A stretch of 64,000 nt of DNA from Pseudomonas laurylsulfativorans (GTDB lineage Bacteria; Pseudomonadota; Gammaproteobacteria; Pseudomonadales; Pseudomonadaceae): assembly GCF_002906155.1 (NCBI RefSeq), contig NZ_MUJK01000001.1, forward strand, positions 1,178,001 to 1,242,000, in the 5' to 3' direction. This document shows, piece by piece, positions 1,622-44,847 of this stretch (positions are counted from its first letter, which is position 1; each line of letters starts with the position of its first letter). The notes below the pieces were generated by a model, which ran no database searches, was not told the DNA's origin, and saw nothing but the letters and a program-made list of their open reading frames with translations. The position numbers and the translations under genes are program-made.

Positions 1622-1640
1622 AACAGGTGCGCAAGGGACA
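1622..1640 (+). promoter_or_regulatory. AACAGGT-N7-GGMCA element, site 1
   Basis: Sequence AACAGGTGCGCAAGGGACA, about 120 bp upstream of the minus-strand EthD-like gene. One of twelve copies of a shared element in this window. Confidence 0.7.
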
Positions 1641-1761
1641 AGGTGGCGACCAACAGTCAACCCGGATCCGCCCATCCAAAGTGCTGATCAAGATCAAGAC
1701 CTGGCATTAGGTTCCGGCCTGCATAACCGTAGAGCGGACTATGAGACCCCGACTGTTTGAT

Positions 1762-1780
1762 TGACCGAATCGCACCTGTT
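1762..1780 (-). promoter_or_regulatory. AACAGGT-N7-GGMCA element, site 2
   Basis: Minus strand reads AACAGGTGCGATTCGGTCA (GGTCA at the variable half). It lies about 110 bp upstream of the AraC gene at 1888, facing site 1 across the intergenic region. Confidence 0.65.
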
Positions 1781-1887
1781 TACCGGCGGGAGCCGATGCC
1801 ATATTCAGCCCTTCAAATTTCTGATCGTTGTGCCAGCTTTACTCCAAGAGCTCGGCAACCCGGAAAGTTGAGCAGGAGGGTTTCGAC

Positions 1888-2793
1888 ATGACGACGTTGA
1901 TCACGCCATATCAAGTGCCTGAGTGGATTCAGGGCACGATGCTGAGCAGCAGCGACACTCAGGGTTGGCACGGGGTCATCCAGCGTTCCTATCAACTAGA
2001 GGCCTGGGAGGTGGCGGCACCAGCGATCGATCATTACGCCATCATGCTGCTACGCTCGAAAACGCCCGCAGCCCTGCAGCGTCGATGTACTGGAGGATGG
2101 CAGCGAAACACGTTCTCCCCGGGCGATATCTCGCTCTTGTCGATCGCTCAGCCTGCCCATTGGCGATGGCAGGAAAGCCTGGACGTCTCCCATATTTACC
2201 TGAGCCGGGAACTGCTGTTAAACGTCTCGCGGGAGGTGACGGGGCGTAACGTCAGTGAAGTCCGATTACACGATTTGTTGGCGATCCGCGATCCTGTCCT
2301 TACCTCGATTGCCTTGGCAATAACTTCCGAGGCGCAAAGTCCTGCAGCAGGGGGAGCCATGTATGCCGAGGCCCTCGCAACTCAGATGGCCGTGCACTTG
2401 CTCAGGAACTATTCAAGCCTTGAGTTCCAGGCGGACCGTTCCTCGCTCAAGCTTGACGGTGCCCGAATGCGCAAACTTCACGCCTACATAGAGGCACATC
2501 TGGAGAGCTCTCTTTCCATCGCGAACCTTGCCGATCAGGTCAACATGGGCGTATGGGCATTTTCGCGTGCGTTCAAGGAGGCCACAGGCTGCCCTCCTCA
2601 CTTGTACATTATGAACGAACGAGTCAAGCGAGCGCAGACTCTGCTGGGCAGCGTAGCCTTGCCATTAAAAGAAATCGCCCTTCAATGCGGTTTTTCGGAC
2701 CAGGCCCACATGTCACGACTGCTCAAGGCCAAGCTCGGTGTCACACCCGGGCAGTTGCAACGAAGCGCTTTAAAGCCTGTGGCTGCAGATTGA
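1888..2793 (+). CDS. AraC-family regulator (FeaR-like)
   Basis: A 301-residue transcription factor. Residues about 30-190 resemble the AraC-binding-like sensor domain of FeaR-type regulators. The C-terminal ~100 residues form the double helix-turn-helix of AraC proteins, with the second-helix signature LKEIALQCGFSDQAHMSRLLK. The start at 1888 is preceded by GGAGG at the correct distance; the longer frame from 1828 has none. It lies just upstream of a BVMO gene and carries a copy of the AACAGGT-N7-GGMCA element in its own leader. It is therefore a leading candidate for the regulator that binds the element, by autoregulation. That link is inference; the ligand is unknown. Confidence 0.9.
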   Translation: MTTLITPYQVPEWIQGTMLSSSDTQGWHGVIQRSYQLEAWEVAAPAIDHYAIMLLRSKTPAALQRRCTGGWQRNTFSPGDISLLSIAQPAHWRWQESLDVSHIYLSRELLLNVSREVTGRNVSEVRLHDLLAIRDPVLTSIALAITSEAQSPAAGGAMYAEALATQMAVHLLRNYSSLEFQADRSSLKLDGARMRKLHAYIEAHLESSLSIANLADQVNMGVWAFSRAFKEATGCPPHLYIMNERVKRAQTLLGSVALPLKEIALQCGFSDQAHMSRLLKAKLGVTPGQLQRSALKPVAAD

Positions 2794-2943
2794 ATCACCT
2801 GAATATTCAAAAATCCCCACCCTTCGCTTCAATACCTCACCTCTGGCCCTTTGTAGGCTTCGATCAACCGGTCATCAGTCACTTTCCCTGAGCCGGTTGG
2901 TAGCGACATTTCGCCGATTATAAAAACAATAGCTGGAGGATGT

Positions 2944-6029: not shown

Positions 6030-6920
6030 TTATCCCACCAATCCAAGTGACTTGAGCACATCCTCAGACTCCAGGAACGTATGGGGACTGAGCATCTTGC
6101 CGCCCCGCTCCACCCAGCCCATGAAATTCTCGCCCGCATCCCAGCCGAGCAATCGTTGTACTTCGCTCGGTAGCCCCTTGAGCGTCTCGAAGGGGATGGA
6201 CAGGTATTGGTTTTCCTCTTGGCGAACACATCCCAGGTCGATCCCCATGGTCAGGCCGGTGCGGGGCGTGTCGCTGGAGTTGGTGCCGCCGCCATGGTAG
6301 GTCGACCCAATGAACAGCAGGGCCGAGCCTGCTGCCATCTCCGCGTTGACCGTTTCTTCGGGCTGAGGGCAGCGCTCGTCGTCCCATTTGTGGCTGCCCG
6401 GGATGACCTTGGTAGCACCTGTAGCTTCGGTGAACTCTGTGATCGCCAGCATGATCTGCAAACGGGCTTCGCGGCCATAGTTCGGATGGCGCCAGAGAAA
6501 ACTGGTGTCATCGCGATGCAATGGTTGCTTGCCCTGGCCTGGATGAATCTGGATGGCCTGAGTCATGCCGATCTGAATTTGCGGGGTGACTGTCGTGCGC
6601 TCCTGGCCGAACCACACATCCACAGGCTTTTGCAGGATTTTGCGTGCAGCCCCCAAATACAAGGGGTGCATCACCACATCGACCATCCGCGAGCATCGGG
6701 CGAACAATCGACTGGCACGGCGAGTCGATGTGCCGACGAAAAAGTTTTCATGACCAAAACTCGAGGTATCGAGTGCTGCATCAATCTGCGCTTTGAGTTC
6801 GACGAGTACATCACTTGCCATGAAGTCGGCAATAATCACGCCGCCATCGCGCTCGATTATCTCAACGACCTGCTCCACGGATGCAGTGCCAGGCAGAGTC
6901 ACAAGGGAAGCAGTAGACAT
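6030..6920 (-). CDS. PhyH-family Fe(II)/2-oxoglutarate dioxygenase, first of three
   Basis: A 296-residue member of the phytanoyl-CoA dioxygenase (PhyH) family of non-haem iron oxygenases, which hydroxylate unactivated carbons while decarboxylating 2-oxoglutarate. Seen: the facial triad as His135-x-Asp137 (LHRDD) and His209 (YHGGGTN), with Arg220 (PRTG) placed to bind 2-oxoglutarate. The family covers many small-molecule substrates, so action on a CoA ester is not implied. It is clearly more distant from the other two PhyH proteins here (16378, 44932) than they are from each other. It follows an outer-membrane protein gene on the same strand after about 170 bp that contain a 12-bp hairpin. 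Confidence 0.88.
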   Translation of the reverse strand: MSTASLVTLPGTASVEQVVEIIERDGGVIIADFMASDVLVELKAQIDAALDTSSFGHENFFVGTSTRRASRLFARCSRMVDVVMHPLYLGAARKILQKPVDVWFGQERTTVTPQIQIGMTQAIQIHPGQGKQPLHRDDTSFLWRHPNYGREARLQIMLAITEFTEATGATKVIPGSHKWDDERCPQPEETVNAEMAAGSALLFIGSTYHGGGTNSSDTPRTGLTMGIDLGCVRQEENQYLSIPFETLKGLPSEVQRLLGWDAGENFMGWVERGGKMLSPHTFLESEDVLKSLGLVG

Positions 6921-6979: not shown

Positions 6980-7091
6980 AGGAATGAAATCGACTGTAGG
7001 GACGCGCGAGCGCGATTCACAGGTTCGCAACTGACAGAAAAGGGAGGAATTACGGCCATTCCAAGAAGCGGCCGCACGCCTCCTCCAGTGG

Positions 7092-8396
7092 TCAGAAGCT
7101 CCAGGTGACGAGGGTTTCAAAAAGACTGGAGCGGTCGTTGGCACCGAAGATCTGCTTGGCTGCGTCGCCAGGTAAAGCCACGCCGTACAAGGCACTGAGC
7201 GTCAGGGCTGGCGTAATGGTCCAGTTCACATACAGATCGACTTCGTTGGCGAAGTCGCGGCTGGTAACACCCTCGGGGGCCTTTTCCAGGCGGAACCGGT
7301 AGCCCATCAACCCTATAGCGACATCCTGACGTGGTTGCACGGCCAGCTTCAGCAAGTCGATGTCGACGTTGCTGTTGAACAGCATGTATTCACCGACAAT
7401 CTCACCCTGATACCAGGTCCCGTATTCCCCTCCGTAGCCATAGGTCATCGGGTCGTAATCGTTGGAGTACTGAGTGCGGCGGTACGTCAGGGTCGGCGTC
7501 CACGCCACGTCCGTGAAGGCATAACTGGCTTGTGCGTACCAGCCATGGGCGGACTTGTTGGCTTCGCCACCCTTCTCCCAGACATACTCGCCTGCCAGGC
7601 TGATTTGCGGCAAAGCGGCAAACGGTGTGCCCTTGGCACGCAGGTCATAGACATCAACCCCGTCACGCGCCGTATTGTCGGCGTCCAGGGTGTGGTAGTA
7701 AGTCGCGCCCAGGGTGCCGAGTGTGTCGCGCCATTCGACATTACCCCCACGCAGGCGCAGGCGTTCCTTGTAATCGGCGTAGTCGAGGTCCTGAGTTGCG
7801 GTCAGGTCGAACAGGTCCGCATGAATTTTTCCCGTGTTCAACTGGGCGATCAGTGTATTAGTGAATGCGGTACGCGGACCAATCCAGGCGGCCGCATCCT
7901 TACCCTGGTCAGCATGACCGTCACCGATCAGAAAGCCGTTGTCGATCATGAAGTTTTGACGTCCGCCGCTCAGGGTAATGGCGTCTTTACCGAGCGAGGG
8001 GAACAGGTCCGCGCTTTTCCAGCCGACGTACGCGGTTTCCCACCCGATGGATTCCGGGTCGTCATGGGTAAAACCACCGGCATCGCTACCACCGCGCGTC
8101 ATCGCCCCGACAGCTGAGGCACCACCGAACACTGTTCCGTAGTCAGTGTCTGGCCCTGTAACCTTCACCCCTGGCAAAACAAAGCCTTCAAACCGACTGG
8201 AAGTGCGGTCCACCTCAAGCCCGATGCTGCTGGTACGGCCGCCGAATGCCTGGTTTTTGTGGTAGAGGTACGCAGCCCCCACCGTCATTGAGGGTTCGAC
8301 CAACACATCCCCGATCTGAAAGCTGTCGAATGCGAAACTGGAACCTGCATACAGCGTTCCGATACCTGCCGCCAAACTGCGAATCGACATTTTCAT
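7092..8396 (-). CDS. Outer-membrane beta-barrel protein (alginate-export/porin-like)
   Basis: A 434-residue exported protein. The N-terminus MKMSIRSLAAGIGTLYAGSS with a following SFA-FD boundary is a typical Sec signal peptide. The remainder alternates aromatic and polar residues in barrel-like strands, and the last residue is Phe (LVTWSF), the classic C-terminal signature for outer-membrane insertion. By eye it resembles alginate-export-family porins found in degradation clusters, where they admit hydrophobic substrates. The ATG at 8396 is preferred over the GTG one codon earlier. The upstream region holds only a weak copy of the AACAGGT-N7-GGMCA element (8487-8505, two clear departures). 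The substrate is unknown, but pairing with an oxygenase suggests uptake of the compound being degraded. Confidence 0.8.
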   Translation of the reverse strand: MKMSIRSLAAGIGTLYAGSSFAFDSFQIGDVLVEPSMTVGAAYLYHKNQAFGGRTSSIGLEVDRTSSRFEGFVLPGVKVTGPDTDYGTVFGGASAVGAMTRGGSDAGGFTHDDPESIGWETAYVGWKSADLFPSLGKDAITLSGGRQNFMIDNGFLIGDGHADQGKDAAAWIGPRTAFTNTLIAQLNTGKIHADLFDLTATQDLDYADYKERLRLRGGNVEWRDTLGTLGATYYHTLDADNTARDGVDVYDLRAKGTPFAALPQISLAGEYVWEKGGEANKSAHGWYAQASYAFTDVAWTPTLTYRRTQYSNDYDPMTYGYGGEYGTWYQGEIVGEYMLFNSNVDIDLLKLAVQPRQDVAIGLMGYRFRLEKAPEGVTSRDFANEVDLYVNWTITPALTLSALYGVALPGDAAKQIFGANDRSSLFETLVTWSF

Positions 8397-8544
8397 CACT
8401 GCCCTTTCCTTTCAATCAATGCGTTATGCCAATCATGGCGACGTGCGATCGATTGTCTGGTTTAAGAGCGCTTGGCTAAAGGCGCAAACGGGTCAAAAAA
8501 GGGGATCGTAAGCGACACTTCAACGTGGCAACGGCAACGCTTTT

Positions 8545-9573
8545 TCAGTGCCTGACCTGCGAGCGATACTGCGAAGGTGTACACCCGCTCCAACGTTGAA
8601 ATGCCCTTCGGAAGGCGGCAGCCTCGCTGAAGCCCAATTGTTCGGCAATCCGTGCGATAGGGACTTGCTGTAACAGCAGCTCCTGCGCGCGTTGATAGCG
8701 TATCTCGCCGAGCAGCTCATGAAAGCTGGTACCCGCGGCTCGCAAGTGACGCTGAAGGGTTTTGCTTGAACAGGCCATGTTCAATGCAATGCTGTTAAGG
8801 GTGGGAACAGAATCAAACTGAGTACAGATGGCCGATTTCACATTCGCGAGAATATCCCGCGGACTCTCCAGCTGGGACTTGAGCTGGGAGCAGTGCTTCT
8901 TCATCTGGGCATGGGAAACCGAATGTGCACAAGGCAGCGGCTGATCGAGCCAACGGGCATCAAAAGACAGGCAGTGAGGGCGCGACGAATCAAAAGACAC
9001 CGGGCACTCAAAATAACGTTTATAGGTCTGCGCATCCGCCAATTCAGGAAAGCCGATATTGATGTTCAACATCGGCAAGGGCTGATAAAGCAAGTCGGCG
9101 ATGAGACTTTGCAATGCCGTCAGGCAGAACTCGATCGCCAACCCACGTAATTGATCCTCAACGTCAAACGTGTCGCTGACGGTCAAGGTCGCCACACCGT
9201 GTTCTTCCTTCAGACTCAGCTCAAAGCCTGTGCCCAGTGGCAACGGATAATCGAAAAGCAGGCGCAGCGCTGATCTGAGGTCACAACTTGAAAGCAGGGT
9301 GAAGCCGAAGATGCCGTACGCAGCCAATCGGCAACGATTGCCCAGTTCCAGGCCCAGATGCGCATTGCCTGTCATGGCAAGTGCGTTGCGCAGGATGGCG
9401 TATTCCTGAGACGGCGCGATCAGTCGCAGGCCAGCCTGAAGTTCCTCGGCATCAAGATCAGTTCCCTGCAGCAACCCTTCCGTCGGGTGACCCGCTTCAA
9501 TCATCAGCGAGTCGACCAGTGCGATGAAGTGCAGCGTGGCCAGTCTATCGATGTCATCTAAAGATCCTCCCAT
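8545..9573 (-). CDS. AraC-family regulator with arabinose-binding-like N-terminal domain
   Basis: A 342-residue regulator. The N-terminal ~220 residues match the large sensor domain seen in OruR/ArgR-type AraC proteins, and the C-terminus has two helix-turn-helix motifs, including IARIAEQLGFSEAAAFRRAF. The start at 9573 has GGGAG 8 bases upstream; a longer version from 9609 is possible. An AACAGGT-N7-GGMCA element lies about 60-75 bp upstream of this start, so the gene belongs to the same regulon and may encode its regulator. A second protein of the same architecture is at 21440. Confidence 0.9.
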   Translation of the reverse strand: MGGSLDDIDRLATLHFIALVDSLMIEAGHPTEGLLQGTDLDAEELQAGLRLIAPSQEYAILRNALAMTGNAHLGLELGNRCRLAAYGIFGFTLLSSCDLRSALRLLFDYPLPLGTGFELSLKEEHGVATLTVSDTFDVEDQLRGLAIEFCLTALQSLIADLLYQPLPMLNINIGFPELADAQTYKRYFECPVSFDSSRPHCLSFDARWLDQPLPCAHSVSHAQMKKHCSQLKSQLESPRDILANVKSAICTQFDSVPTLNSIALNMACSSKTLQRHLRAAGTSFHELLGEIRYQRAQELLLQQVPIARIAEQLGFSEAAAFRRAFQRWSGCTPSQYRSQVRH

Positions 9574-9630
9574 GATATTCACTCCCCATGCTGATTCAGC
9601 GGGGAGCATAAACCTTGGTCAGAAATCAGA

Positions 9631-9649
9631 AACAGGTGCCAAACGACCA
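9631..9649 (+). promoter_or_regulatory. AACAGGT-N7-GGMCA element, site 3
   Basis: Sequence AACAGGTGCCAAACGACCA (GACCA at the variable half), about 60 bp upstream of the AraC gene starting at 9573. Confidence 0.65.
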
Positions 9650-9679: not shown

Positions 9680-10324
9680 TTAATGGCCGACGCGAATCAT
9701 GTTTACCCACATCGTGCGCATTGTCTCAAGCGTTTCGTCCCAATGTTGCTGATCGGCGGCGATCTGTTTGTTGTAAAACAACAGCCCTTCGATTTGCGAA
9801 GCGATAAGCGTCGCGTAGACATCAGCCTTGCTGGAGGTCAACTGCGGATTCACCTCCCTGATCAAGTTCGCCAGGATGCGGCAGAACTCACCGTAGATAT
9901 GCTTGAGATGCTCATTGACGGCTTTGTCGTGTTCGGCCAACGCCCACGTCTGGAATGAGAACGATGCAATCCAGGGGTCCAGCGTCGCGGCCATGTCTTC
10001 ATCGATTACCTTCAGGAAGCGCTGCTCAGGCGTGAGCGACGTCTCATTGGCAATGTCGTAGAAGCGAGTGACGAAGACCTCGATTTTTGCCCGAATCATG
10101 GAAAGCAGAAGGTTTTCGGTAGTACCGCAGTAATGCTGGAGGTTACTGAGGCTGATGCCCAACTCACTGGCAACTCGCCGGGCGGAAAACTGAGCGTAGC
10201 CATCCCGTACGAAAAGCATGGCTGCTGCTTCAATGATGTCCTCGATCCGCTGAACGCGTTTCTTTTCGCGGGGGCTGGCGGTCCTGTCAAACAGCGACTC
10301 GGCCCGTGTGCTTTCACTCGACAT
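9680..10324 (-). CDS. TetR-family repressor
   Basis: A 214-residue TetR-type regulator. The N-terminal DNA-binding domain (residues ~25-75) includes FSARRVASELGISLSNLQHY, the usual recognition helix region. The rest is the helical ligand-binding and dimer domain. The start at 10324 is chosen because GGAG lies 9 bases upstream; a start at 10354 with no clear ribosome site is the alternative. About 140 bp upstream of the gene is the palindrome GGTC-N4-GACC, which recurs twice upstream of the AraC gene at 21440. Autoregulation and control of that operon are inferred. Confidence 0.9.
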   Translation of the reverse strand: MSSESTRAESLFDRTASPREKKRVQRIEDIIEAAAMLFVRDGYAQFSARRVASELGISLSNLQHYCGTTENLLLSMIRAKIEVFVTRFYDIANETSLTPEQRFLKVIDEDMAATLDPWIASFSFQTWALAEHDKAVNEHLKHIYGEFCRILANLIREVNPQLTSSKADVYATLIASQIEGLLFYNKQIAADQQHWDETLETMRTMWVNMIRVGH

Positions 10325-10460
10325 CGCGTAATGCTCCAAAAGCGCATGTTCCATTTTTACAGAATGCCTGCTGCCAAAGCCGCGATCTGATCTCGCGGGT
10401 ATTGGCCTATCCTTGGCGCTCTGCAGACTGACAAGAATTGTAGGTAGGACACTTGATATA

Positions 10461-10548: not shown

Positions 10549-12024
10549 TCAAAGGCCGACAGTGACCTTCTTGAGTGTCAACTGGCGGACGTTGCGGTAG
10601 CCACCCTTGTAGCTGGTAGCAATCACCAGGCGCATGGCCAGGTAATAGGCCAGGACACAAACGGCGAGCGTCGGCATCGTTGCCCCAACGTAACGGAAGG
10701 TGGGGCCTACCGCCAACGTCAGCGGATCAAACAACATCAGGTATACCGCCGCCCCCAGGGCGATGGTGGCCATGGCAACCCAATTGACACCACCCCAGAA
10801 CCAGTAAGCACCTTCTTCGCTCTTTACGAACAGGTGTGTCGGCAACAACACCTGACGACGCAGCAAGAGAAAATCTGTCAACAGCACGGCGGCAATGCCC
10901 GCGAAAATGGCGCTGTTGTAGGCCAGCCAATTCATCACATGCGCAATCAACCATTGCGTATTGAAGGCAACCACCAATCCCGGCAACAACAGCACCAGAA
11001 TGATCATGTCCCAGCGCATCCTGGCAAAGAACCGTACTTGTTGAACCGAGACCCCGGCAAAGTAGAAGAAGCTGATCAAGGTGCCCAGGTTGGCCAGCAG
11101 GAGTATGGATACGATCACCGTGCCAACGCCATTGCCAGCGGTCTTGATCACCCATTCTGCTGGCTCGGTGGAACCGGTCACCACCGCCGCCAGCGCCCCT
11201 ACGGCAGAGGTGAAACCTGCACCAATCAACCCTGCGCCCAACAACGAAGGCGTGATGAGATGCTTGCGTTTATGAATAAGCCGAGCGATTCCGCCAAAAA
11301 AAGGGACACTGGTCAACGCATTGGATGCCCCGAACTCGACGCCGTAGGCCAGTTGCAGCAATGGGTCGGTGGCGTAGGCTAACTTCGCATCAACATTGGT
11401 CTGCAGCAGGGTCGTCAAACTGACATCACGCGTGATCAGGTAAAGCACAATGCAAGCGATGATCAGAATGGCCGGTGAGGTATACCGTGTCAGCAAGGCA
11501 ATCATCGCCGGGCCCTTTCTCAGCAGCGCCCAGACCAGGGCAAGCATGAGCACCGATACAGTGGCGACAAAGCCGTTGTCGATTTCGCCGCCAGGATTGA
11601 ACAGGATCTGCTGCAGGCGACCGGCGGCTTGTCCGGTCATGGCGATGAGCACGAATGACCAACCCAGGGTAGTAATCAGGATCAGTGCCAGCAGCAATGA
11701 AGAACCACGGGTGCCCATCGAGCTTTTGGCCGCATCGACCGGATCGACACCGTGGCGAAAACAGATCATTCCTGAAGCCAGATACACGGGCGCGAGACCC
11801 ACTATCAGGCCGATCAGGTAACCGGCAATACCGATAGAGGTATTGCCGATGTAGGCAATGGAAGCACCAAATAGATAATTGAAACTGGCCGCACCGATGG
11901 CAACGCATGCCGCCAGCAATGAGCCAAAGCCATTGTACAACCGGTTTGAACCCTGCACCGGCAAGCGCCCTGCCAAGGCTTCACGCGATATTGCGCCACT
12001 CACATCCGCACCCGAATCACTCAT
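10549..12024 (-). CDS. NCS1-family cytosine/purine-type permease, copy 1
   Basis: A 491-residue integral membrane protein of the nucleobase:cation symporter-1 family, with about 12 hydrophobic segments. Members carry nucleobases, hydantoins, allantoin and other small nitrogen heterocycles with Na+ or H+. The start at 12024 has AGGGGA at the right distance. It is an obvious tandem paralogue of the permease at 12209: same length, and near-matching throughout by eye. It has its own regulatory element (site 4) and is separated from its twin by a terminator. Sitting beside imine-reductase and amine-transaminase genes, it probably imports the nitrogenous substrate; this is inference. Confidence 0.88.
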   Translation of the reverse strand: MSDSGADVSGAISREALAGRLPVQGSNRLYNGFGSLLAACVAIGAASFNYLFGASIAYIGNTSIGIAGYLIGLIVGLAPVYLASGMICFRHGVDPVDAAKSSMGTRGSSLLLALILITTLGWSFVLIAMTGQAAGRLQQILFNPGGEIDNGFVATVSVLMLALVWALLRKGPAMIALLTRYTSPAILIIACIVLYLITRDVSLTTLLQTNVDAKLAYATDPLLQLAYGVEFGASNALTSVPFFGGIARLIHKRKHLITPSLLGAGLIGAGFTSAVGALAAVVTGSTEPAEWVIKTAGNGVGTVIVSILLLANLGTLISFFYFAGVSVQQVRFFARMRWDMIILVLLLPGLVVAFNTQWLIAHVMNWLAYNSAIFAGIAAVLLTDFLLLRRQVLLPTHLFVKSEEGAYWFWGGVNWVAMATIALGAAVYLMLFDPLTLAVGPTFRYVGATMPTLAVCVLAYYLAMRLVIATSYKGGYRNVRQLTLKKVTVGL

Positions 12025-12086
12025 GGAATTCCCCTGATCTACCGTCGACAAGACAAGCTCGAATTATGAGCCGGCGGCGATAGTCC

Positions 12087-12105
12087 AACAGGTGCGACGC
12101 GGACA
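12087..12105 (+). promoter_or_regulatory. AACAGGT-N7-GGMCA element, site 4
   Basis: Sequence AACAGGTGCGACGCGGACA followed by AATTAC, 63 bp upstream of the first NCS1 permease start. Confidence 0.75.
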
Positions 12106-13696: not shown

Positions 13697-13921
13697 TCAG
13701 ATGTAAAAGCCCACGAGGGCCCAAAGGACAATACCGGCAACAAACCAGCCAGCCGCTGTCAGGATGATCGAACCGGTCGGCAAACTGGTTTCGTCATTGA
13801 GGTTCTCGGGAGAATTCAAGGCGATCAAACTCCTGACCAGATCGAGGTCAAGATCGCCGATCGTGTCGTCGACCAGAAAAGAATGTTCGTCTGAGATATG
13901 AAGGCTGGATACATCACGCAT
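13697..13921 (-). CDS. Small single-pass membrane protein beside the NCS1 permease
   Basis: A 74-residue protein with an acidic N-terminal half and one hydrophobic segment at residues ~51-72, ending GFYI. I recognise no named family. The ATG at 13921 has AGGAG with a 6-base spacer. A longer frame from 14098 also has a good ribosome site, but its extra 59 codons run through the AACAGGT-N7-GGMCA element at 14067-14085 and look non-coding, so the short form is preferred. The stop is 12 bp before the second permease, suggesting a small accessory subunit comparable in layout to the small partners of other cation symporters. This is inference. Confidence 0.6.
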   Translation of the reverse strand: MRDVSSLHISDEHSFLVDDTIGDLDLDLVRSLIALNSPENLNDETSLPTGSIILTAAGWFVAGIVLWALVGFYI

Positions 13922-14066
13922 AAGCTGCTCCTGAAAAACGGTAGAGGGCAGAATGTCTGGAAAGATCGTTTTTATTGTGTGCCAGCATCCGTGCGTGCCT
14001 TGACCATGACCGGCCAATTCCGCGCCATCCGTTGACGCCTTGATTATGGGCTTGCCAACCTTGGCA

Positions 14067-14085
14067 AACAGGTGCGCAGGGGACA
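14067..14085 (+). promoter_or_regulatory. AACAGGT-N7-GGMCA element, site 5
   Basis: Sequence AACAGGTGCGCAGGGGACA followed by TTTT, about 145 bp upstream of the small membrane-protein gene that leads the second NCS1 permease. Confidence 0.75.
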
Positions 14086-14136
14086 TTTTGAGGGTCATTG
14101 CTCCCTCCCCGCCAACCTGCTGCCGAACGGTATCGA

Positions 14137-15015: not shown

Positions 15016-15094
15016 GCCAATTCCTTCTTGCTGATGAGATGTCAACCGCGTCAGCCGCGGTGCCCAAGGACTCTAGGCAGCTGACGCTTGGCAA

Positions 15095-15113
15095 AAAAGG
15101 TGCTTTATGGCCA
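15095..15113 (+). promoter_or_regulatory. AACAGGT-N7-GGMCA element, site 6
   Basis: AAAAGGTGCTTTATGGCCA, one base off the consensus in the first half. It lies 80 bp upstream of the minus-strand imine-reductase-like gene. Confidence 0.6.
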
Positions 15114-15200: not shown

Positions 15201-15219
15201 TGGCCCCTGCTCACCTGTT
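15201..15219 (-). promoter_or_regulatory. AACAGGT-N7-GGMCA element, site 7
   Basis: Minus strand reads AACAGGTGAGCAGGGGCCA followed by AATTAC. It lies about 105 bp upstream of the amine-transaminase gene and faces site 6 in the divergent promoter region. Confidence 0.75.
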
Positions 15220-20954: not shown

Positions 20955-21049
20955 GACACCTGCTGCCCAATTCAAACAAACTGGGCAGTCCCCCTCCTCT
21001 TCCGTTCATCGAAATTAATCGCGACGACACTCATCTGTCACTTGACCTA

Positions 21050-21061
21050 GGTCGCTCGACC
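21050..21061. promoter_or_regulatory. GGTC-N4-GACC palindrome, site 2
   Basis: GGTCGCTCGACC, preceded by CACTTGACCTA as in site 1. Its centre is 22 bp, two helical turns, from that of site 3. Confidence 0.5.
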
Positions 21062-21071
21062 GTATTTAATC

Positions 21072-21083
21072 GGTCACATGACC
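21072..21083. promoter_or_regulatory. GGTC-N4-GACC palindrome, site 3
   Basis: GGTCACATGACC, 22 bp centre to centre from site 2, on the same face of the DNA. Both lie in the 486-bp region upstream of the AraC gene at 21440. Confidence 0.5.
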
Positions 21084-21192
21084 TAATAAATGCAACCGCG
21101 TTTTATTCGGTCTGATTCACATCGATCCCTACCTGATAGACCAACAAAAAAAGGGTGCTGCACGACAGCCCCGAAAGGTCAGGAGATAACAA

Positions 21193-21375
21193 ATGAGGTC
21201 CAAGACCCACAGCGGGACAGTAGCAAAGCTACTCCCGACAACGCCTGAATTTCATGGATTCGCTCAGACCGATTCCATAGGTTTGGTGTCGCGATTCAAC
21301 CCAGCACCTTTGTTCGAACCTCCCCGGCCTGCCCACGCCACTGCTTTTAATTCCCGAATAAACCCACGCGGATGA
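21193..21375 (+). CDS. Possible small ORF, function unknown
   Basis: A 60-codon frame with an excellent ribosome site (AGGAG, 7-base spacer). It has no recognisable family, no hydrophobic segment and many Pro and Arg residues. It lies between the double GGTC-N4-GACC site and the AraC gene, ending 64 bp before the latter. It could be a leader peptide or a chance frame behind a purine-rich stretch. Confidence 0.25.
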   Translation: MRSKTHSGTVAKLLPTTPEFHGFAQTDSIGLVSRFNPAPLFEPPRPAHATAFNSRINPRG

Positions 21376-21439
21376 TTCGTTGCGTCAGCGCGATTTCACG
21401 CGGTCATATTGGCTTGGCTACACCAGTGAGGGCAGTACG

Positions 21440-22558
21440 ATGGGACTGATCGAAACGACACCTATCACATTGGACGACAAGGTTTTTTCCACGGCAGAGA
21501 TTCTGGCGGCAGCCAGCCTGGTGGGCGGTGACGAACGACTGGTGAGCGAATGCCTGGCTGCAGGGTCCATGACCCTGTTTGACCTGGGTAATCCACTGAC
21601 CAAGATCTCGTTGAACCAGCAATCGCTGATTCACGCCGAGTTCAATCAACAGGCGAGTAACCCGTTGCTCAGCCTGCAGGTTGGCAAACGCCTGCATTTA
21701 ACCTCCTACGGCATCGTCGGCTTTGCCATGCTCAGCAGTGCCACACTGCGCGACGCCCTGGAAACAGCCAGTCAGTTCGGGCTGTTGATCAATCTCAAGA
21801 TGGGCCTGCAACTGAGCTGCGAGAGCGGCGGTGCCTTGCTTGAGCTCAACGATCAATACGGCTTGATCAGTCCTGAAAATGCCTTCTGGTACTACCTGGA
21901 AGTGTCGAAGCTGGTGACGCTGCTCCAGGACATCCTGGGCCGCGATTTCAGTTGCGAGGGCATTGAGTTGAGTATTGATGCCACGCTTCAACAGCAAGCC
22001 GAGACTCGCGAAAGCCTTGGTGTGCCGGTTCGCTTCAATTGTGAGCGCACCGCCATACGCTTCTCGTCACATTGGCTCGACAACAAGCTGCCGCAATCCA
22101 ACAGCATCACTCACGCCAGTTGCAAGACAAACTGCCAGGCGCAACTGCGCGAAATCCTGCAGAAATACGACATCAGCTTTCAGGTCCAGAACCTGCTGCT
22201 CAACTCCGGTCAATGCATTGCCTCGCTGTCCGAAATTGCCGACCACCTGCATCTATCGCCTCGTACGCTGCGTCGGCGCCTCGATGCGCTTGGCACCTCC
22301 TACAACTCGCTGCTGGTGGAAGTACGCAAGAAGCTAGCCATTCGCTACTTGCTCAGCACGCCCATGACCACCGAGGCGATATCGGAGCAACTCAACTACA
22401 GCGATGCGGCGAACTTCCGGCACGCCTTCAAACGCTGGACAGGACGCTCGCCCCGCGAGTACCGCGTGCTCAACAACGGCGGCAAGTACGCCTCACGGTT
22501 TGGCCAAGGCAAGAGCAGCCTCGGCCTGGGCCATTCAAGCGCCCTGGGTATGGGCTGA
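21440..22558 (+). CDS. AraC-family regulator with arabinose-binding-like N-terminal domain
   Basis: A 372-residue regulator of the same architecture as the protein at 8545: a large sensor domain (residues ~20-240) and a C-terminal pair of helix-turn-helix motifs (LSEIADHLHLSPRTLRRRL and TEAISEQLNYSDAANFRHAF). A Gly/Ser-rich tail of about 25 residues extends beyond the usual end. The ATG at 21440 has GAGGG at the right distance; the in-frame TTG at 21380 does not. It precedes an SDR-hydrolase-SDR run. Its control region has GGTC-N4-GACC palindromes instead of the AACAGGT element, which points to TetR control. Confidence 0.88.
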   Translation: MGLIETTPITLDDKVFSTAEILAAASLVGGDERLVSECLAAGSMTLFDLGNPLTKISLNQQSLIHAEFNQQASNPLLSLQVGKRLHLTSYGIVGFAMLSSATLRDALETASQFGLLINLKMGLQLSCESGGALLELNDQYGLISPENAFWYYLEVSKLVTLLQDILGRDFSCEGIELSIDATLQQQAETRESLGVPVRFNCERTAIRFSSHWLDNKLPQSNSITHASCKTNCQAQLREILQKYDISFQVQNLLLNSGQCIASLSEIADHLHLSPRTLRRRLDALGTSYNSLLVEVRKKLAIRYLLSTPMTTEAISEQLNYSDAANFRHAFKRWTGRSPREYRVLNNGGKYASRFGQGKSSLGLGHSSALGMG

Positions 22559-27386: not shown

Positions 27387-29498
<2,112 letters not shown>

Positions 29499-35909: not shown

Positions 35910-35928
35910 AACAGGTTCAAGGTGGCCA
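35910..35928 (+). promoter_or_regulatory. AACAGGT-N7-GGMCA element, site 8
   Basis: Sequence AACAGGTTCAAGGTGGCCA followed by TATTT, in the 253-bp divergent region between the acyl-CoA ligase and the iron alcohol dehydrogenase. Confidence 0.75.
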
Positions 35929-39795: not shown

Positions 39796-41199
39796 TCAGT
39801 GCTGCACCACTTCACGCGTTCTTACAGAGGCCATTCCGGCCATTGCCAAAACCGGTGCCAGCAAGAACACCAGCGGCAGATGGTTGACCCACCACTGATC
39901 ACTGCCTGTCATCACCGGGTAATTGTCGATCATCAACCCGAATGCCACGAGCATGCTGACCCCGCCAAGAAAGGGCGCAACGCCCGTGCTCCAGATGGAC
40001 TCGGTGTGGCGCTGGCCACGGAAATAACGCAACACGGCAAAGCTGGTCAGGCATTGCAGCAACACGATACCTAACACCCCCATACCGAACAGGGCCACGC
40101 CCATCTGCAGATAAGGATGCTGGCCTGCGGCAATGAAGCAGACCGTGACGATCGCCAACAGGCCCAACTGCCCCACAGTGCCATTAAATGGCGAATGATG
40201 CTTGGGCTGGGTCTTGCCCAACCACTGCGGGAGCACGCCGCTGCGTGCCAACGAGAAATGGTAACGCGCCGTGCTCATGTGCAATGCCAGGAAGCCGGCA
40301 AACAGGCTGGTGATCACCAGTACCTGCATGATCTGCGTTGCCAGAGTGCCCAGGTATTGGGTGTTGATGATGAAAAGGTAAGACGCAGGGTCCGCAGCCG
40401 CCACTGACTTGGCCTGATCGACGCCCACCGCCGAAACCATGGCCCAGGTGGTGGTCAGGTAGAACACGGCAATCAGCGCAATCGCAATGTAGGTGGCGCG
40501 CGATACCGTGCGCCGAGCGTCACGAGCCTCTTCGCCGTAGATAACCGTGGCTTCAAAGCCGATAAAAGAGCCCAGTCCTAGAATCAGGCTCAAGCCCGCG
40601 CCGCTGCCCAACACCAGGTGCGGGTCGAAAACACTCAGCGAAAACCCCTGGAAACCCTTGCTCCACAGCACGGAAAAATCCAGCGCGAACAGACTGATCA
40701 CTTCCAAGAGCAACGCTACGGCCAACACCTTCGCGCTGGCACTGACATCCAGATAGCCCAGCACCAGGGTGGCGACAAACCACAACAGACCAAACCACTG
40801 CCAGGCAATGTCGATGCCGGTCAGGTCCTTGAGCACCAAGCTGCTGAAGAACGACAGGCTGCCAAAGGTGCCGATCGTGATGGCGTTGTAAGTCAGTACC
40901 GCCAGCCAAGCGGCCATGCGCCCGGCGCGCTCGCCAAAGCCCGCGGCGATGTAAGCGTAAAAGGCACCAGCATCGGTGATGCGTTGGCTCATTTTCAGGT
41001 AGCCGACCGCAAACACCGAAAAAATCAGCGCAGCGACGATATAGGTGCCAGGCGTGCCAGCCCCCGTGCCCAAGGCAATGGACAGGGTCGTGAGTGAAAC
41101 CACGATGCCCATGGGGGCTACGGCAGCGAGCACCAGCAGCACCAGGTCCTTGGTGCCTAAGGTGTCGCGCTTGAGTGAATGGACATCGGGTTGGGACAT
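39796..41199 (-). CDS. APC-family amino acid/amine permease
   Basis: A 467-residue membrane protein with about 12 hydrophobic segments, of the amino acid-polyamine-organocation superfamily. The N-terminal LGTKDLVLLVLAAVAPMG and the GFEATVIYGEEARDARRTV loop between TM6 and TM7 fit that family. The start at 41199 gives a short cytoplasmic N-terminus; the longer frame adds 21 residues without a ribosome site. Divergent from the SDR at 41447, with one regulatory element facing each gene. Likely importer of an amine or amino acid for this module. Confidence 0.9.
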   Translation of the reverse strand: MSQPDVHSLKRDTLGTKDLVLLVLAAVAPMGIVVSLTTLSIALGTGAGTPGTYIVAALIFSVFAVGYLKMSQRITDAGAFYAYIAAGFGERAGRMAAWLAVLTYNAITIGTFGSLSFFSSLVLKDLTGIDIAWQWFGLLWFVATLVLGYLDVSASAKVLAVALLLEVISLFALDFSVLWSKGFQGFSLSVFDPHLVLGSGAGLSLILGLGSFIGFEATVIYGEEARDARRTVSRATYIAIALIAVFYLTTTWAMVSAVGVDQAKSVAAADPASYLFIINTQYLGTLATQIMQVLVITSLFAGFLALHMSTARYHFSLARSGVLPQWLGKTQPKHHSPFNGTVGQLGLLAIVTVCFIAAGQHPYLQMGVALFGMGVLGIVLLQCLTSFAVLRYFRGQRHTESIWSTGVAPFLGGVSMLVAFGLMIDNYPVMTGSDQWWVNHLPLVFLLAPVLAMAGMASVRTREVVQH

Positions 41200-41271
41200 G
41201 ATGAGGCGCCTCGGGTCGAGAGTGGATGGCTGGACATTCGGGCGCAGGCTATCGCTCGGCAAGGCCGTGGC

Positions 41272-41290
41272 AACAGGTTTCCGGTGGCCA
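41272..41290 (+). promoter_or_regulatory. AACAGGT-N7-GGMCA element, site 9
   Basis: Sequence AACAGGTTTCCGGTGGCCA followed by TTTTTT, 73 bp upstream of the minus-strand permease. Confidence 0.75.
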
Positions 41291-41331: not shown

Positions 41332-41350
41332 TGTCCCTTTCGAACCTGTT
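41332..41350 (-). promoter_or_regulatory. AACAGGT-N7-GGMCA element, site 10
   Basis: Minus strand reads AACAGGTTCGAAAGGGACA, about 100 bp upstream of the plus-strand SDR, facing site 9. Confidence 0.75.
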
Positions 41351-41446
41351 TTCGCCCTCGAACGCTTCGTAGACTCGACCCTGTAGTTGCAAAACCGAGG
41401 GGCAGTCCCTCACCCGAAGACAGTTTTTGCCGATGGAGGCGATTCA

Positions 41447-42244
41447 ATGCGATTCAACAATAAAATAGCCATTGTGACCGGTTCGAGCTCAGGCAACGGC
41501 CGCGCCATCGCCCTGGCGCTCGCCGCAGAGGGCGCCCACCTGGTGTGCTCGGATCTCTCCAAAAGCGCCCGCCCGGAAGGCTTTGAAAAAGACCTGCACA
41601 TCGACACCGACGACCTGATTTGCCAGAACGGTGGTGAGGCGATTTTCGTAAAAGCTGATGTGTCCAAATACGCCGACATGGACAATCTGGTTCAGGAAGC
41701 CGTCAGACGTTTTGGCCGATTGGATATCATGATCAACAACGCTGGCGTCGCGGTAGAGCTCAAGACCATCGTCGAAGAAACCGAGGCTGATTACGACCTG
41801 ACCATGAACGTCAACACCAAGGGAACGTGGTTGGGTTGCAAGTTCGCGATTACCCAGATGATGAAACAGGAGGTCAGTGACACTGGCACCCGCGGCAAGA
41901 TCGTCAACATCTCGTCCATCGGCGGTTTGGTCGGTCTGGCTCAAGAGGCGTCCTACTGCGCATCCAAAGGCGCCGTGAACAATCTGACCCGGCAGTTGGC
42001 CGTCGATTTTGCGCAACACAAGATCAACGTCAATGCCGTTTGCCCGGGGTTCCTCGCCACGGCCATGGTTCGCCAGGAACTGGACAACCCTGAGATCAAG
42101 ACACTGCTGGAAAACCTGACACCCTGGCCGCGCATCGGCAACGTGGAGGATGTTTCCAAGGCCGTGACATTCCTTGCCTCGGAAGACGCTCAGTGGATGA
42201 CCGGTTCGTTGCTGACCGTTGACGGTGCCTATACCGCTCAGTGA
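41447..42244 (+). CDS. SDR-family oxidoreductase, module B copy
   Basis: A 265-residue classical SDR, the close paralogue of the protein at 24550, with TGSSSGNGRAIALALAAEG, NNAG, NISSIGG, YCASK and the C-terminal WMTGSLLTVDGAYTAQ. GGAGG is ideally placed before the ATG at 41447. It lies in a module with a permease, class III aminotransferase, hydrolase and PhyH dioxygenase. Transcribed alone, ending at a terminator. Confidence 0.92.
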   Translation: MRFNNKIAIVTGSSSGNGRAIALALAAEGAHLVCSDLSKSARPEGFEKDLHIDTDDLICQNGGEAIFVKADVSKYADMDNLVQEAVRRFGRLDIMINNAGVAVELKTIVEETEADYDLTMNVNTKGTWLGCKFAITQMMKQEVSDTGTRGKIVNISSIGGLVGLAQEASYCASKGAVNNLTRQLAVDFAQHKINVNAVCPGFLATAMVRQELDNPEIKTLLENLTPWPRIGNVEDVSKAVTFLASEDAQWMTGSLLTVDGAYTAQ

Positions 42245-42272
42245 TGGAAGCGCTCACCGTAGAGATCAAAGT

Positions 42273-42300: not shown

Positions 42301-42370
42301 GAACGGCCGGATAGCACGCCATACGCTGGGTAAGCTACGGCATTTCAGGTGAGTCTGCGACGATGAAACA

Positions 42371-42405: not shown

Positions 42406-42429
42406 CAAACCCGCGACCTGTCTATGCCA

Positions 42430-43755
42430 TCAGCGTTGTGCAACCGCCAATTTTGCCGCGCGTTCTGTGGCCGCAATAAAGCCATCGACATCCTCTTCGG
42501 TCATGACGGTCGAGAGGAAAGCCTTGCCGGTCTTGGCAATGTGATAGCCCTCCAGCACCAGATTGCGTTGCAGCGCGGTCACCCACTTCATTTCCTCCTT
42601 GCTGGAGTAACCGGAGCGGTAATCCTGCACCTCGCGCTGATGACCAAACACCATGAACATCGACGAGAAGCCCGTCACCTGGCCCGGGTAATCAGCATTG
42701 GAAAACGCCTGGGTCAGGCCTGCGCGCAAACGATCGCCGAGCACGTCCATACGATCAGACTCGGCCTGGGTATACAGGTCCAAGGCGATTTTTCCGGCCG
42801 TCATGGTGATTGGGTTCGCGGTGAAGGTCCCGCTCCATGGCAACAGCGGTTTGCCCTCGCGGTGGTCGAACACCTGCATGAACTTGCGCGAGCCCGCCAC
42901 CGCGCCGACCGGGAATCCGCCACCGATGATTTTCGCCAGTACGGTCAGATCCGGCTTGATGTTAAAGCGGGTTTGCGCCCCGCCGCTGTGCACGCGGAAG
43001 GTGATGACTTCATCGAGAATGAACACAGCGCCGATTTCGGTCGAAACCCGGCGGATCATTTCAACGAAAGCCTGAGACACTGGCACAAAACCGAAGTAGC
43101 TAGGCGCCGGATCAATGATGATCGCCGCGATGGCATCGCGGTTGGCCAGGATGATCCGTTCTGCTGCATCTACATCGTTGAAAGGAATGACCACGACGTC
43201 GCTCTTGACGCCTTCAGGGGTGCCCTTCGAATAGCCGATGGACTGGGGGTCGTCACCCCAGTTTTCCGGCGATGAGTCGAGGCTGACTTCGGCGTAATCG
43301 TAAGAGCCGTGGTAAACCCCTTCAGCCTTGACGATTTTAGACCGTCCGGTAATTGCGCGAGCCGCCTTGATGGCGCACATCACCGCTTCGGAACCGGAGT
43401 TGGAGAAGCGAATCCACTCGAAGCCTTCGGCGCGGGCGCAGATGGTTTCGGCCAGTGCGACTTCCGGCTCAGTCGGCAGCGTGAAAGCGGTGCCCTTGGT
43501 CACCTGCTCCTGGATCGCCGCGACAATCGCCGGGTGAGCATGACCGTGGATCAGCGAAGCAAAGTTGTTCAGCAGGTCCAGCCGACGCGTGCCGTCGACA
43601 TCGGTGACATAAGCCCCCGAACCACTTCCGGCGTAGACCGGGAAAGGCTCCTGCCACGGAAGGATTCGAGTGATACCACCCGGCATGACCTGACTGGCGC
43701 GGTCATACAGGGCTTTGGATTGGCTGTGGGCTTCTGGCCATTTTGCAGCGGACAT
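42430..43755 (-). CDS. Class III aminotransferase, glutamate-semialdehyde-aminomutase-like
   Basis: A 441-residue PLP enzyme of fold type I, class III. Seen: FSNSGSEAVMCAIKAARA, VYHGSYDY, LDEVITFR, and the PLP lysine Lys275 in LAKIIGGGFPVGAV, a pattern shared with glutamate-1-semialdehyde aminomutase and related amino-acid or amine transaminases. The start at 43755 follows GAAGGA; the TTG five codons earlier is the alternative. Tetrapyrrole synthesis (HemL) is unlikely here, since the neighbours are a hydrolase, a dioxygenase and permeases. It probably transfers or shifts an amino group on the module's substrate. Encoded 30 bp after the hydrolase gene. Confidence 0.88.
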   Translation of the reverse strand: MSAAKWPEAHSQSKALYDRASQVMPGGITRILPWQEPFPVYAGSGSGAYVTDVDGTRRLDLLNNFASLIHGHAHPAIVAAIQEQVTKGTAFTLPTEPEVALAETICARAEGFEWIRFSNSGSEAVMCAIKAARAITGRSKIVKAEGVYHGSYDYAEVSLDSSPENWGDDPQSIGYSKGTPEGVKSDVVVIPFNDVDAAERIILANRDAIAAIIIDPAPSYFGFVPVSQAFVEMIRRVSTEIGAVFILDEVITFRVHSGGAQTRFNIKPDLTVLAKIIGGGFPVGAVAGSRKFMQVFDHREGKPLLPWSGTFTANPITMTAGKIALDLYTQAESDRMDVLGDRLRAGLTQAFSNADYPGQVTGFSSMFMVFGHQREVQDYRSGYSSKEEMKWVTALQRNLVLEGYHIAKTGKAFLSTVMTEEDVDGFIAATERAAKLAVAQR

Positions 43756-43785
43756 AGGTGTTTCCTTCAAAGGCAGTAGGCTTGA

Positions 43786-44679
43786 TCAGAGGTGACGTTT
43801 GAACCATTCGACGGCGGCTGAGCTTGAGGCTTCGAATTCGCTCAGGTAAGGGTCGAAATGACCGCAGTCGAGCAGCACCAGATGCTTGGGCTGCAACGCA
43901 CGCTCATAGGCCTTGAGCGCGAGGTCGGGAACAGTGACGGTGTCTTTCTGGGCGACGATGATCTGCAAGGGTGTGGGGCTGATACGGTCAATCGCGTAAG
44001 CCGGTTCGTACTCGTTGAGCAATTCGATACTCTTGAGCGTGACCTCATTGCGCCAGGCCGGTGCCACGCTGTGGTGGCTGTCGATGAAGTAGTCGTAGGA
44101 ATCCTGGCCTGGCAATGCGCAGTCAGACTTCGGGTCTTCATTGACCACTTCCATCAGTAGCGGATGATCACCGGCATAACGCGCCGCGCGGTCCGCCTCG
44201 AACGCTTCCACCAGCCCAGGCATCAGGTCCGGACGTACGGCCATGCGTACATCGGCGGAGCCACTGATGGCCGGCACCTGGGCGGACACGCACTTGACCC
44301 GACGGTCGAAGGCTGCCACTTGCAGTACATGGCCGCCGCTATAGCTTGAGCCCCAGATACCGATCCGCGAAGCGTCAATGTTCTCGAGGCTGCTGACATA
44401 CGTAATCGCATCGCGGTAGTCGCGAACCTGCAACAACGGATCGGCCTCCTGGCGAGGCAGTCCTTCGCTGGCGCCGAAGTTGCGGTTGTCGTAAACCAGC
44501 ACCGCAAAACCTTGTCGGGCAAACGTCTCGGCATAGCGGTCCAGGTATTGTTCCTTCACCGCCGTAAAGCCGTGCGCCATGACAATCGCCGGATGCGAGT
44601 CGGCCCCGTTCTGTGGAGTAAAGAGCCAGCCCTTGAGCGTCAGGCCATCGGTTGTCTTAAAGCTGATATCTGCACGCAT
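43786..44679 (-). CDS. Alpha/beta hydrolase of S15/dienelactone-hydrolase type, module B copy
   Basis: A 297-residue paralogue of the hydrolase at 23605. Seen: MAHGFTAVKEQYLDRYAETF, nucleophile Ser112 in GSSYSGG, and a His in CGHFDPYLS. AGGAG precedes the ATG at 44679. First gene of a two-gene unit with the class III aminotransferase, divergent from the PhyH gene at 44932. Site 11 lies about 80 bp upstream. Confidence 0.88.
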   Translation of the reverse strand: MRADISFKTTDGLTLKGWLFTPQNGADSHPAIVMAHGFTAVKEQYLDRYAETFARQGFAVLVYDNRNFGASEGLPRQEADPLLQVRDYRDAITYVSSLENIDASRIGIWGSSYSGGHVLQVAAFDRRVKCVSAQVPAISGSADVRMAVRPDLMPGLVEAFEADRAARYAGDHPLLMEVVNEDPKSDCALPGQDSYDYFIDSHHSVAPAWRNEVTLKSIELLNEYEPAYAIDRISPTPLQIIVAQKDTVTVPDLALKAYERALQPKHLVLLDCGHFDPYLSEFEASSSAAVEWFKRHL

Positions 44680-44756
44680 GAGGGTCTCCTGCCAATCAAT
44701 TACCTGCCGTAAATTCGGCCACTGGGGGGAGATGGTGAATCGCAACGCCGTGGATG

Positions 44757-44775
44757 CACAGGTGCATGGTGGCCA
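44757..44775 (+). promoter_or_regulatory. AACAGGT-N7-GGMCA element, site 11
   Basis: CACAGGTGCATGGTGGCCA followed by AACTT, one base off in the first half. It lies upstream of the minus-strand hydrolase. Confidence 0.7.
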
Positions 44776-44828
44776 AACTTCTGTGGTTGAAAGCCAAGCG
44801 CACGACTGGCCGCTGAAGTGCGCAAATT

Positions 44829-44847
44829 TGGCCGGCAGCCACCTGTT
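44829..44847 (-). promoter_or_regulatory. AACAGGT-N7-GGMCA element, site 12
   Basis: Minus strand reads AACAGGTGGCTGCCGGCCA followed by AATTT, 85 bp upstream of the PhyH gene at 44932 and facing site 11. Confidence 0.75.

Follow-up and report, generated by a model that had tools for sequence, protein, structure and literature searches.

It is known that XylS binds the Pm promoter of the TOL plasmid through two half-boxes per monomer, a box A (TGCA) and, 6 bp further, a box B (GGTA), arranged as two direct repeats (PMC5481539, in the part available), and the operator has been written as TGCA-N6-GGNTA-N6-TGCA-N6-GGNTA, which corresponds to a 21-bp period (PMC4514859, in the part available). The latter text also describes MtlR of P. 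fluorescens as a dimer on two unequal tandem half-sites near the -35 hexamer. The element analyzed here was found in a 64,000-nt stretch of the Pseudomonas laurylsulfativorans genome (assembly GCF_002906155.1, contig NZ_MUJK01000001.1, positions 1,178,001 to 1,242,000 of the forward strand; hereafter the window, in whose coordinates genes and sites are numbered) and reads WWWT-TGKCC-N6-MACCTKTT towards the controlled gene. The XylS site reportedly overlaps the polymerase site, to go by the title of a cited paper; the proximal site of the present element adjoins or overlaps the predicted -35 of a sigma-70-type promoter, in a fixed orientation.

TGKCC-N6-MACCTKTT precedes 13 genes or operons, and it is probable that one activator, likely the AraC-type protein encoded at 21440 (AraC-21440), switches on a predicted amine-degradation cluster through it. 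As far as the available parts of the sources go, the layout resembles that of XylS/Pm in its two boxes, which would serve as the half-boxes of one monomer, near -35; a tandem repeat at about 21 bp is indicated by a distal A-box in about 60% of the sites. It differs in the boxes themselves, in a distal box that is degenerate or missing in approximately 40% of the sites, in the use of one operator sequence before all 13 genes or operons, and in the proteins, which here belong to the Arabinose_bd subfamily. Since the layout is the same in kind while the letters, promoter number, and protein subfamily differ, regulon and operator sequence are both, as judged from sequence, new, but built on a known architecture. 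The initial annotation knew of no described operator of this form; the form is that of XylS, but no report of the letters was found in the open-access literature among the matches listed, which does not prove their absence. MtlR, in the available text, has a strong upstream and a weak downstream half-site, whereas here the promoter-proximal copy is conserved and the upstream one degenerate.

The VqsM (GGATSNNNTYGGCCA) and CdpR (RGWYNNNWNCGGCCA) motifs of P. aeruginosa, as quoted in the available part of PMC8151288, open when reversed with TGGCC, followed by N6 and ATCC or RWCY, near TGKCC-N6-MACC. The ACCTGTT box is missing from the VqsM, CdpR, and GliR motifs as quoted in the text available. 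The GliR (PA3027) motif of P. aeruginosa is placed there upstream of or over -35, and the letters ACCTGTT occur in the GliR paper only in two primers. CdpR (5chh) was the best-scoring solved relative of the AraC-type protein encoded at 8545 (AraC-8545); its footprint is a different 15-bp sequence, and coding regions account for 89% of its 28 loci (PMC4847859, in the part available).

Twelve copies of the element, written as AACAGGT-N7-GGMCA, had been listed in the initial annotation. All twelve are present (eight exact, four with one mismatch), but a further site with promoter context lies at 7018 and shows all three features, namely the core, a -10-like hexamer, and a distal box. In the list below, the strand of a site is the direction of the controlled gene.

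1622..1640, minus strand: operator core of the EthD-like gene 1186-1518; exact; -10-like CACACT at 39
1762..1780, plus strand: operator core of the AraC gene 1828/1888-2793; one mismatch; -10-like CATATT at 38
7018..7036, minus strand: 13th operator core, of the PhyH dioxygenase gene 6030-6920; two mismatches; position weight matrix (PWM) score 15.9; -10 TACAGT at 38; distal TGGCC at -22
9631..9649, minus strand: operator core of the AraC gene 8545-9609; one mismatch; -10 TATGCT at 39; distal AGGCC at -21
12087..12105, minus strand: operator core of the NCS1-type permease gene 10549-12051; exact; -10 CATAAT at 37
14067..14085, minus strand: operator core of a small open reading frame (ORF), 13697-14098, and the NCS1-type permease gene 12209-13684; exact; -10 CATAAT at 37
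15095..15113, minus strand: operator core of the imine reductase-like gene 14137-15045; one mismatch; -10 TAGAGT at 38; distal TGTCC at -22
15201..15219, plus strand: operator core of the class IV (R-amine-type) transaminase gene 15322-16308; exact; -10 TACCAT at 39; distal TGGCC at -22
35910..35928, minus strand: operator core of the acyl-CoA ligase gene 34170-35819; exact; conserved in two relatives
41272..41290, minus strand: operator core of the APC permease gene 39796-41262; exact; -10-like TAGCCT at 39
41332..41350, plus strand: operator core of the short-chain dehydrogenase/reductase (SDR) gene 41387-42244; exact; -10 TAGACT at 38
44757..44775, minus strand: operator core of the alpha/beta hydrolase gene 43786-44745 (and the class III aminotransferase gene 42430-43770); one mismatch; -10-like CACCAT at 38; distal TGGCT at -21
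44829..44847, plus strand: operator core of the PhyH dioxygenase gene 44932-45813; exact; -10 TATGAT at 38; distal TGGCC at -22

The aligned sites bore out the constant 7-bp spacer, the A/T-rich flank, and the four facing pairs (1622/1762, 15095/15201, 41272/41332, and 44757/44829) that had been claimed, and the orientation relative to the controlled gene is uniform in 13 of 13 sites. Two other claims had to be revised. The set had been called scattered, but exact matches with promoter context form a single contiguous cluster of about 44 kb. The distance to the start codon had been given as 60-145 bp, but the gaps to the listed ORF starts measured 9-103 nt in 12 of 13 sites, and at 14067 the site runs into a 133-aa ORF whose 5' end was set mechanically. 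Several of the listed starts seem to be placed too far upstream, as they would put the -10 inside the ORF. For AraC-8545, the 342-aa start, used in 18 of 31 close homologues, leaves a gap of about 58 nt for site 9631.

With up to one mismatch allowed, 13 matches were found in the window, compared with a mean of 0.64 and a maximum of 3 in shuffled sequences (0 of 100 shuffles reached 13). The thirteenth, at 28720, was rejected as an operator; it lies inside a fadB-like ORF and has no -10. Genome-wide, there were 11 exact matches: eight in the window, upstream of genes, and three within long ORFs (L001, in ORF 753-1709; L010, in 969-2915; L011, in 1149-2447). A refined pattern, WNNWTGNCCNNNNNSMACCTKTT, derived from the window sites, had seven exact matches in the genome, all of them within the window; across 147 genomes of the genus, the other 146 had 0-3 each (56 had at least one). 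A genome scan had been named as the check to be made, and these two scans rule out a random or intragenic distribution, with 8 of the 11 exact matches standing before window genes. The motif is real. Its reading as an artefact of base composition or codon usage could draw on the plain pattern at one mismatch, which is common genome-wide (230 matches, compared with 82 for a reversed control). The probability of such an artefact is negligible: it is already refuted at the level of sequence statistics by the 13 matches against 0.64 expected, by the confinement of refined exact matches to the window, and by the fixed -10 spacing described below. Because the one-mismatch pattern is common, a lone match of this kind without promoter context means little, and weight was put on exact matches and promoter context.

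A PWM search of the window and five relatives at a score of at least 14 yielded 72 sites, and 68 sites from six genomes were pooled (13 from the window, 18 from P. capeferrum, 12 from P. turukhanskensis, 10 from Pseudomonas sp. dw_358, 8 from Pseudomonas sp. TH31, and 7 from a metagenome-assembled genome, MAG). Dropped were window 28718 (inside an ORF), L108 1688 (inside the AraC-21440 gene), L107 18470 (taken as coding), and L105 4673 (the distal partner of 4694). The core was nearly fixed, with A, C, C, and T of the right box kept in 66-68 of the 68 sites, which as orthologous promoters are not independent. TGKCC and MACCTKTT form an asymmetric two-box site with first letters 11 bp apart, approximately one helical turn; no dyad or inverted symmetry was seen in the operator core, which is thus not the palindromic site of TetR-type operators. 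In 59 of 68 pooled sites (12 of 13 in the window), a hexamer [TC]ANNNT begins 37-39 nt past the first T of TGKCC, compared with 0-7 of 68 in 24 control windows. With a -10-like hexamer at this distance, TGTT of the right box would coincide with the -35 hexamer, and transcription is predicted to start approximately 50 nt past the same T. A further TGKCC-like box, matching in at least 4 of 5 letters, lies 21-22 bp upstream in 40 of 68 sites; in 48 control windows, the mean count was 5.0 and the highest 12. Of a distal B-box, the pooled sites show no more than a C-rich trend at -10 to -8; in L068, the entire repeat scores by itself, 21 bp off.

These features are consistent with a mechanism in which the two helix-turn-helix (HTH) motifs of one AraC monomer would occupy the two boxes, TGKCC and MACCTKTT, in the near site, and a second monomer would occupy the weaker upstream box on the same DNA face. 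The inducer-bound near monomer would then contact sigma-70, substituting for a poor -35. The genes of AraC-8545 and of the AraC-type protein encoded at 1828 (AraC-1828) would form a second tier within the regulon.

The cluster is rare. A relative of AraC-21440 at E <1e-60 was found in 2 of 398 genomes of the genus, this one included, and a class-wide search returned the own genome only (1 of 369). Sites precede orthologues of window genes in P. capeferrum, P. turukhanskensis, dw_358, TH31, the MAG, and the genome G402, which shows the same pattern of sites; among 392 relatives of G402, matches beyond G402 itself reached 32-36% at best. Six loci in five named genomes hold AraC-8545 orthologues at 66-84%, and each has the motif before orthologues of window genes, with the gene set complete in none. 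Out of five relatives, a site precedes the orthologue in five for the class IV transaminase, imine reductase, AraC-8545, and hydrolase, four for SDR-41387 and PhyH-44932, three for NCS1-10549, two for NCS1-12209, the APC permease, the acyl-CoA ligase, and PhyH-6030, and one for EthD and AraC-1828, where gaps may reflect a missing gene, site, or contig. The facing pairs recur in relatives (transaminase/imine reductase, APC/SDR, and hydrolase/PhyH). Exact matches of the refined pattern in the five relatives numbered 5, 4, 2, 5, and 0, and 15 of 16 were on cluster contigs.

Three double helix-turn-helix proteins with HTH_18 (Pfam) are encoded with the regulon, and any of them had been proposed as the binder in the initial annotation.

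21440..22558, plus strand: AraC-type regulator, most likely predicted binder; Arabinose_bd and HTH_18 (Pfam, longer frame 21380-22558)
8545..9609, minus strand: AraC-type regulator, target and rival binder; Arabinose_bd and HTH_18
1828..2793 (start maybe 1888), plus strand: AraC-type regulator, target; HTH_18

AraC-1828 was rejected as the binder. It was not found in three of five motif-bearing relatives searched, one of them an incomplete MAG, and is probably not needed, since it was found in only two of five. Its 45-46% relatives L062 and L063 had no site in the 3.9 kb scanned of each. An orthologue of AraC-21440 at 69-83% was present in five of five relatives and also in G402; P. abieticivorans has one at 72%, and its name did not appear among the AraC-8545 homologues listed. 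Since AraC-8545 is likewise present in all five, Pseudomonas alone cannot decide between 21440 and 8545. A gene-directed site stands before AraC-8545 in 8 of 8 copies and before AraC-1828 in 2 of 3, and none with a score >5 was found before 21440-type genes (0 of 15), so that AraC-8545 and AraC-1828 are probably targets, carrying sites themselves.

The motif was also found on the B. multivorans plasmid NZ_CP090750 (106.6 kb), which carries a homologous gene set (class IV transaminase 67%, PhyH 69%, hydrolase 66%, SDR 61%, Fe-alcohol dehydrogenase (Fe-ADH) 53%, Baeyer-Villiger-type monooxygenase (BVMO) 50%, and NCS1 42%). The Pseudomonas PWM scored 27.1 at the transaminase promoter and 18.3 at the SDR promoter, compared with a maximum of 13.1 in 20 mononucleotide shuffles, and both promoters have their -10 and distal boxes in place. 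The pattern TGDCC-N6-MACMTGTY, widened after its Burkholderia matches were seen, has seven matches on the plasmid, all in two catabolic-gene stretches and none between 6.5 and 94.1 kb; two of the seven adjoin an IS3 transposase gene. The plasmid encodes two 21440-type AraCs (HTH identity 59-60% to 21440 and 36% to 8545), and neither an 8545 type, a 1828 type, nor a LuxR/MalT-type (LAL) regulator was found in the plasmid record. Because this motif-bearing plasmid holds only 21440-type AraCs, the binder was taken to be AraC-21440 rather than AraC-8545, and AraC-21440 is the likely binder of the element. The right box in Burkholderia and Caballeronia is looser than in Pseudomonas, and the proteins of both share a change from FRHAFKRW to FSHAFKRW in what we take to be the second recognition helix, following the MarA/AraC helix numbering. 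The helix change alongside the looser box is only suggestive of a link between regulator and operator.

AraC-8545 could instead bind the operator, autoactivating through site 9631, with AraC-21440 reading something else. The site before its gene in every copy examined, its membership in the same Arabinose_bd and HTH_18 subfamily, the clear group formed by its orthologues at 63-96%, the motif at 6 of 6 Pseudomonas loci with a 66-84% orthologue, and the lack of any match above 11 at the control locus L074 (a 31% relative) are all consistent with this. We nevertheless regard it as rather unlikely, though a serious competitor of the 21440 reading: its best matches on the B. multivorans plasmid, at 29-31%, are the two 21440-type genes, and none of 29 loci of 38-41% relatives in other Pseudomonas (L032-L060, up to 1.5 kb on each side) scored above 12.9. 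An overlapping alternative, which we consider unlikely, is that 21440-type and 8545-type AraCs, along with the 44-51% paralogue of 21440 in relatives, both recognize the operator and compete or act sequentially. Both types are kept in every Pseudomonas cluster examined and share an R within the second recognition helix (FRHAFKRW and FRRAFQRW), at an identical position, but the HTH identity of AraC-21440 to the 8545 types is only 35-42% (alignment with four further 8545 homologues added and the out-of-frame cap8545_C4 and tur8545 excluded). The 44-51% paralogue itself, a second 21440-like AraC with an HTH identity of 66-72%, is found in clusters of relatives and not in the window (L104 7808, L112 16764, L114 17076, L117 17731, and L122 6794).

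Activation of the 13 promoters by AraC-21440 remains the preferred reading, and several observations weigh against it. AraC-8545 was present alongside the motif in all Pseudomonas clusters examined, so the choice of 21440 rests mostly on the one Burkholderia plasmid and a weak Caballeronia case. In the Caballeronia stretch, no strict match was found (the best score, 9.9, falls inside the range of the shuffles, which reached 16.4), and only a loosened pattern gave three matches with a -10, compared with 0.12 expected. To the non-independence of the pooled sites and the late widening of the Burkholderia pattern are added the approximately 40% of sites without a recognizable distal box, the 28 one-mismatch matches of the refined pattern in the own genome (12 in the window), compared with 25 for the control, and TH31, which has no exact refined match and one-mismatch sites only. 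Finally, site 35910 has no [TC]ANNNT at 37-40, either in the window or in both relatives carrying the site (0 of 3). Overall, the earlier proposal of a shared operator, a regulon, and an AraC-type regulator is supported by the sequence comparisons, with 21440 favored, 8545 possible, and 1828/1888 unlikely as the binder.

The cluster products, as assigned from Pfam and PDB sequence matches, are two NCS1 permeases, an APC permease, an imine reductase, an (R)-amine-type class IV transaminase, a class III aminotransferase, PhyH oxygenases, flavin monooxygenases, which we infer to be of the Baeyer-Villiger type, hydrolases, SDRs, an Fe-ADH, an acyl-CoA ligase, and beta-oxidation enzymes. The cluster is predicted to degrade a cyclic or branched amine, which would pass from uptake to a ketone, oxygen insertion, lactone hydrolysis, and beta-oxidation. 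This order follows established alicyclic-amine chemistry. No site was found directly upstream of the beta-oxidation, Fe-ADH/BVMO, LAL, and methyl-accepting chemotaxis protein genes of the window, which therefore fall outside the regulon by the site test. A cluster without a known substrate thus becomes a defined regulon with a testable predicted on-switch. The regulator is expected to be induced by the substrate or by an early intermediate, and a reporter placed behind any of these promoters could therefore reveal what the pathway consumes. The promoter set could also be used for an amine sensor, and the cross-genus regulator/operator pair for the study of joint change in AraC specificity and operator.

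Dyads before araC-21440 and a TetR-type gene may belong to an upper tier of regulation.

9680..10354, minus strand: TetR-type regulator, possible upper tier; conserved with the cluster
21044..21075, no strand assigned: two dyads (GACCTAGGTC and GACCGTATTTAATCGGTC), candidate TetR-type operators, approximately 365-400 nt before araC 21440
L108 2989; L110 1009, 1038, and 2890; L112 14778 and 16600; L113 3557; L114 16788-16893: AGGTC-N4-GACCT or GACCTAGGTC palindromes, alone or tandem
L115 5536; L117 10372 and 18959; L122 4698, 6612, and 14926; L124 1787: the same palindromes, alone or tandem

Dyads of the form AGGTC-N4-GACCT or GACCTAGGTC precede the araC-21440 genes (21044 and 21058 in the window), the 44-51% paralogue, and tetR in four or five relatives; none was found before the window's own tetR. 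The strict dyad form (N2-6) had 12 matches in 14 pooled loci, compared with 1.4 in shuffles (maximum 6), and the wider dyad set had a few matches elsewhere, some inside genes. AGGTC-N4-GACCT dyads are candidate operators of the cluster's TetR, and a TetR gate over araC-21440 would fit. MalT-type proteins can bind direct repeats, and TetR genes are found with the cluster in Pseudomonas, Burkholderia, and Caballeronia, which could speak for binding of the TGKCC element itself by the TetR-type (9680) or LuxR/MalT-type (31470) regulator. We rejected both as binders and hold such binding to be highly improbable: the core is not palindromic, the separate dyad before the araC-21440 and tetR genes suits TetR better, and no LAL homologue was found on the Burkholderia plasmid or in 49 kb of the Caballeronia plasmid.

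It is tentatively proposed that the locus is a portable two-tier circuit, in which TetR on AGGTC-N4-GACCT would gate araC-21440, whose product would fire one tandem operator at 13 promoters, including those of two AraC genes, as a feed-forward all-or-none switch. Operator and regulator would have moved jointly between Pseudomonas and Burkholderia, the right box shifting from ACC to ACM with Arg-to-Ser in the second recognition helix.

The leader of araC-21440 (window approximately 21090-21440) is conserved in six relatives and contains the strict DNA blocks CCTACCTG-ATAGACCAACAA, AAGGTCAGGAGAT, and CCCCGGCCTGCCC. Within it opens a short ORF of 39-60 aa that starts with MRSKT in 6 of 7 cases; because the later frame is not conserved, the leader may act as a structured RNA or a leader peptide. 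A further palindrome lies just ahead of the operator of an AraC-1828 orthologue (L114 8182). In Burkholderia and Caballeronia, the TetR-family protein beside the 21440-type AraC matches TetR-9680 twice in tandem, as a double-TetR protein (L125 6017-7483, L128 7012-8508, and L131 27080-28444).

When AraC-8545 was searched against plasmids, all matches were below 60%. A lone operator PWM match of 21.0 was observed on an unannotated plasmid of Vibrio sp. THAF190c (L127 13062), on which a relative of AraC-8545 at 31% is encoded. Inspection of a Rhodococcus plasmid that carries a PhyH relative at 48.5% gave no substrate.

One more site-like sequence precedes the porin gene of the window.

8477..8495, minus strand: weak candidate site TGACCCGTTTGCGCCTTTA, of the porin gene 7092-8399; same 19-mer in L068 and L073; no -10 at 36-40

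The sequence is nearly invariant before the porin gene (window 8477-8495, L068 5853, and L073 11094), and a variant differing by one letter stands before another gene at L073 18901. It is possibly the site of a different regulator.

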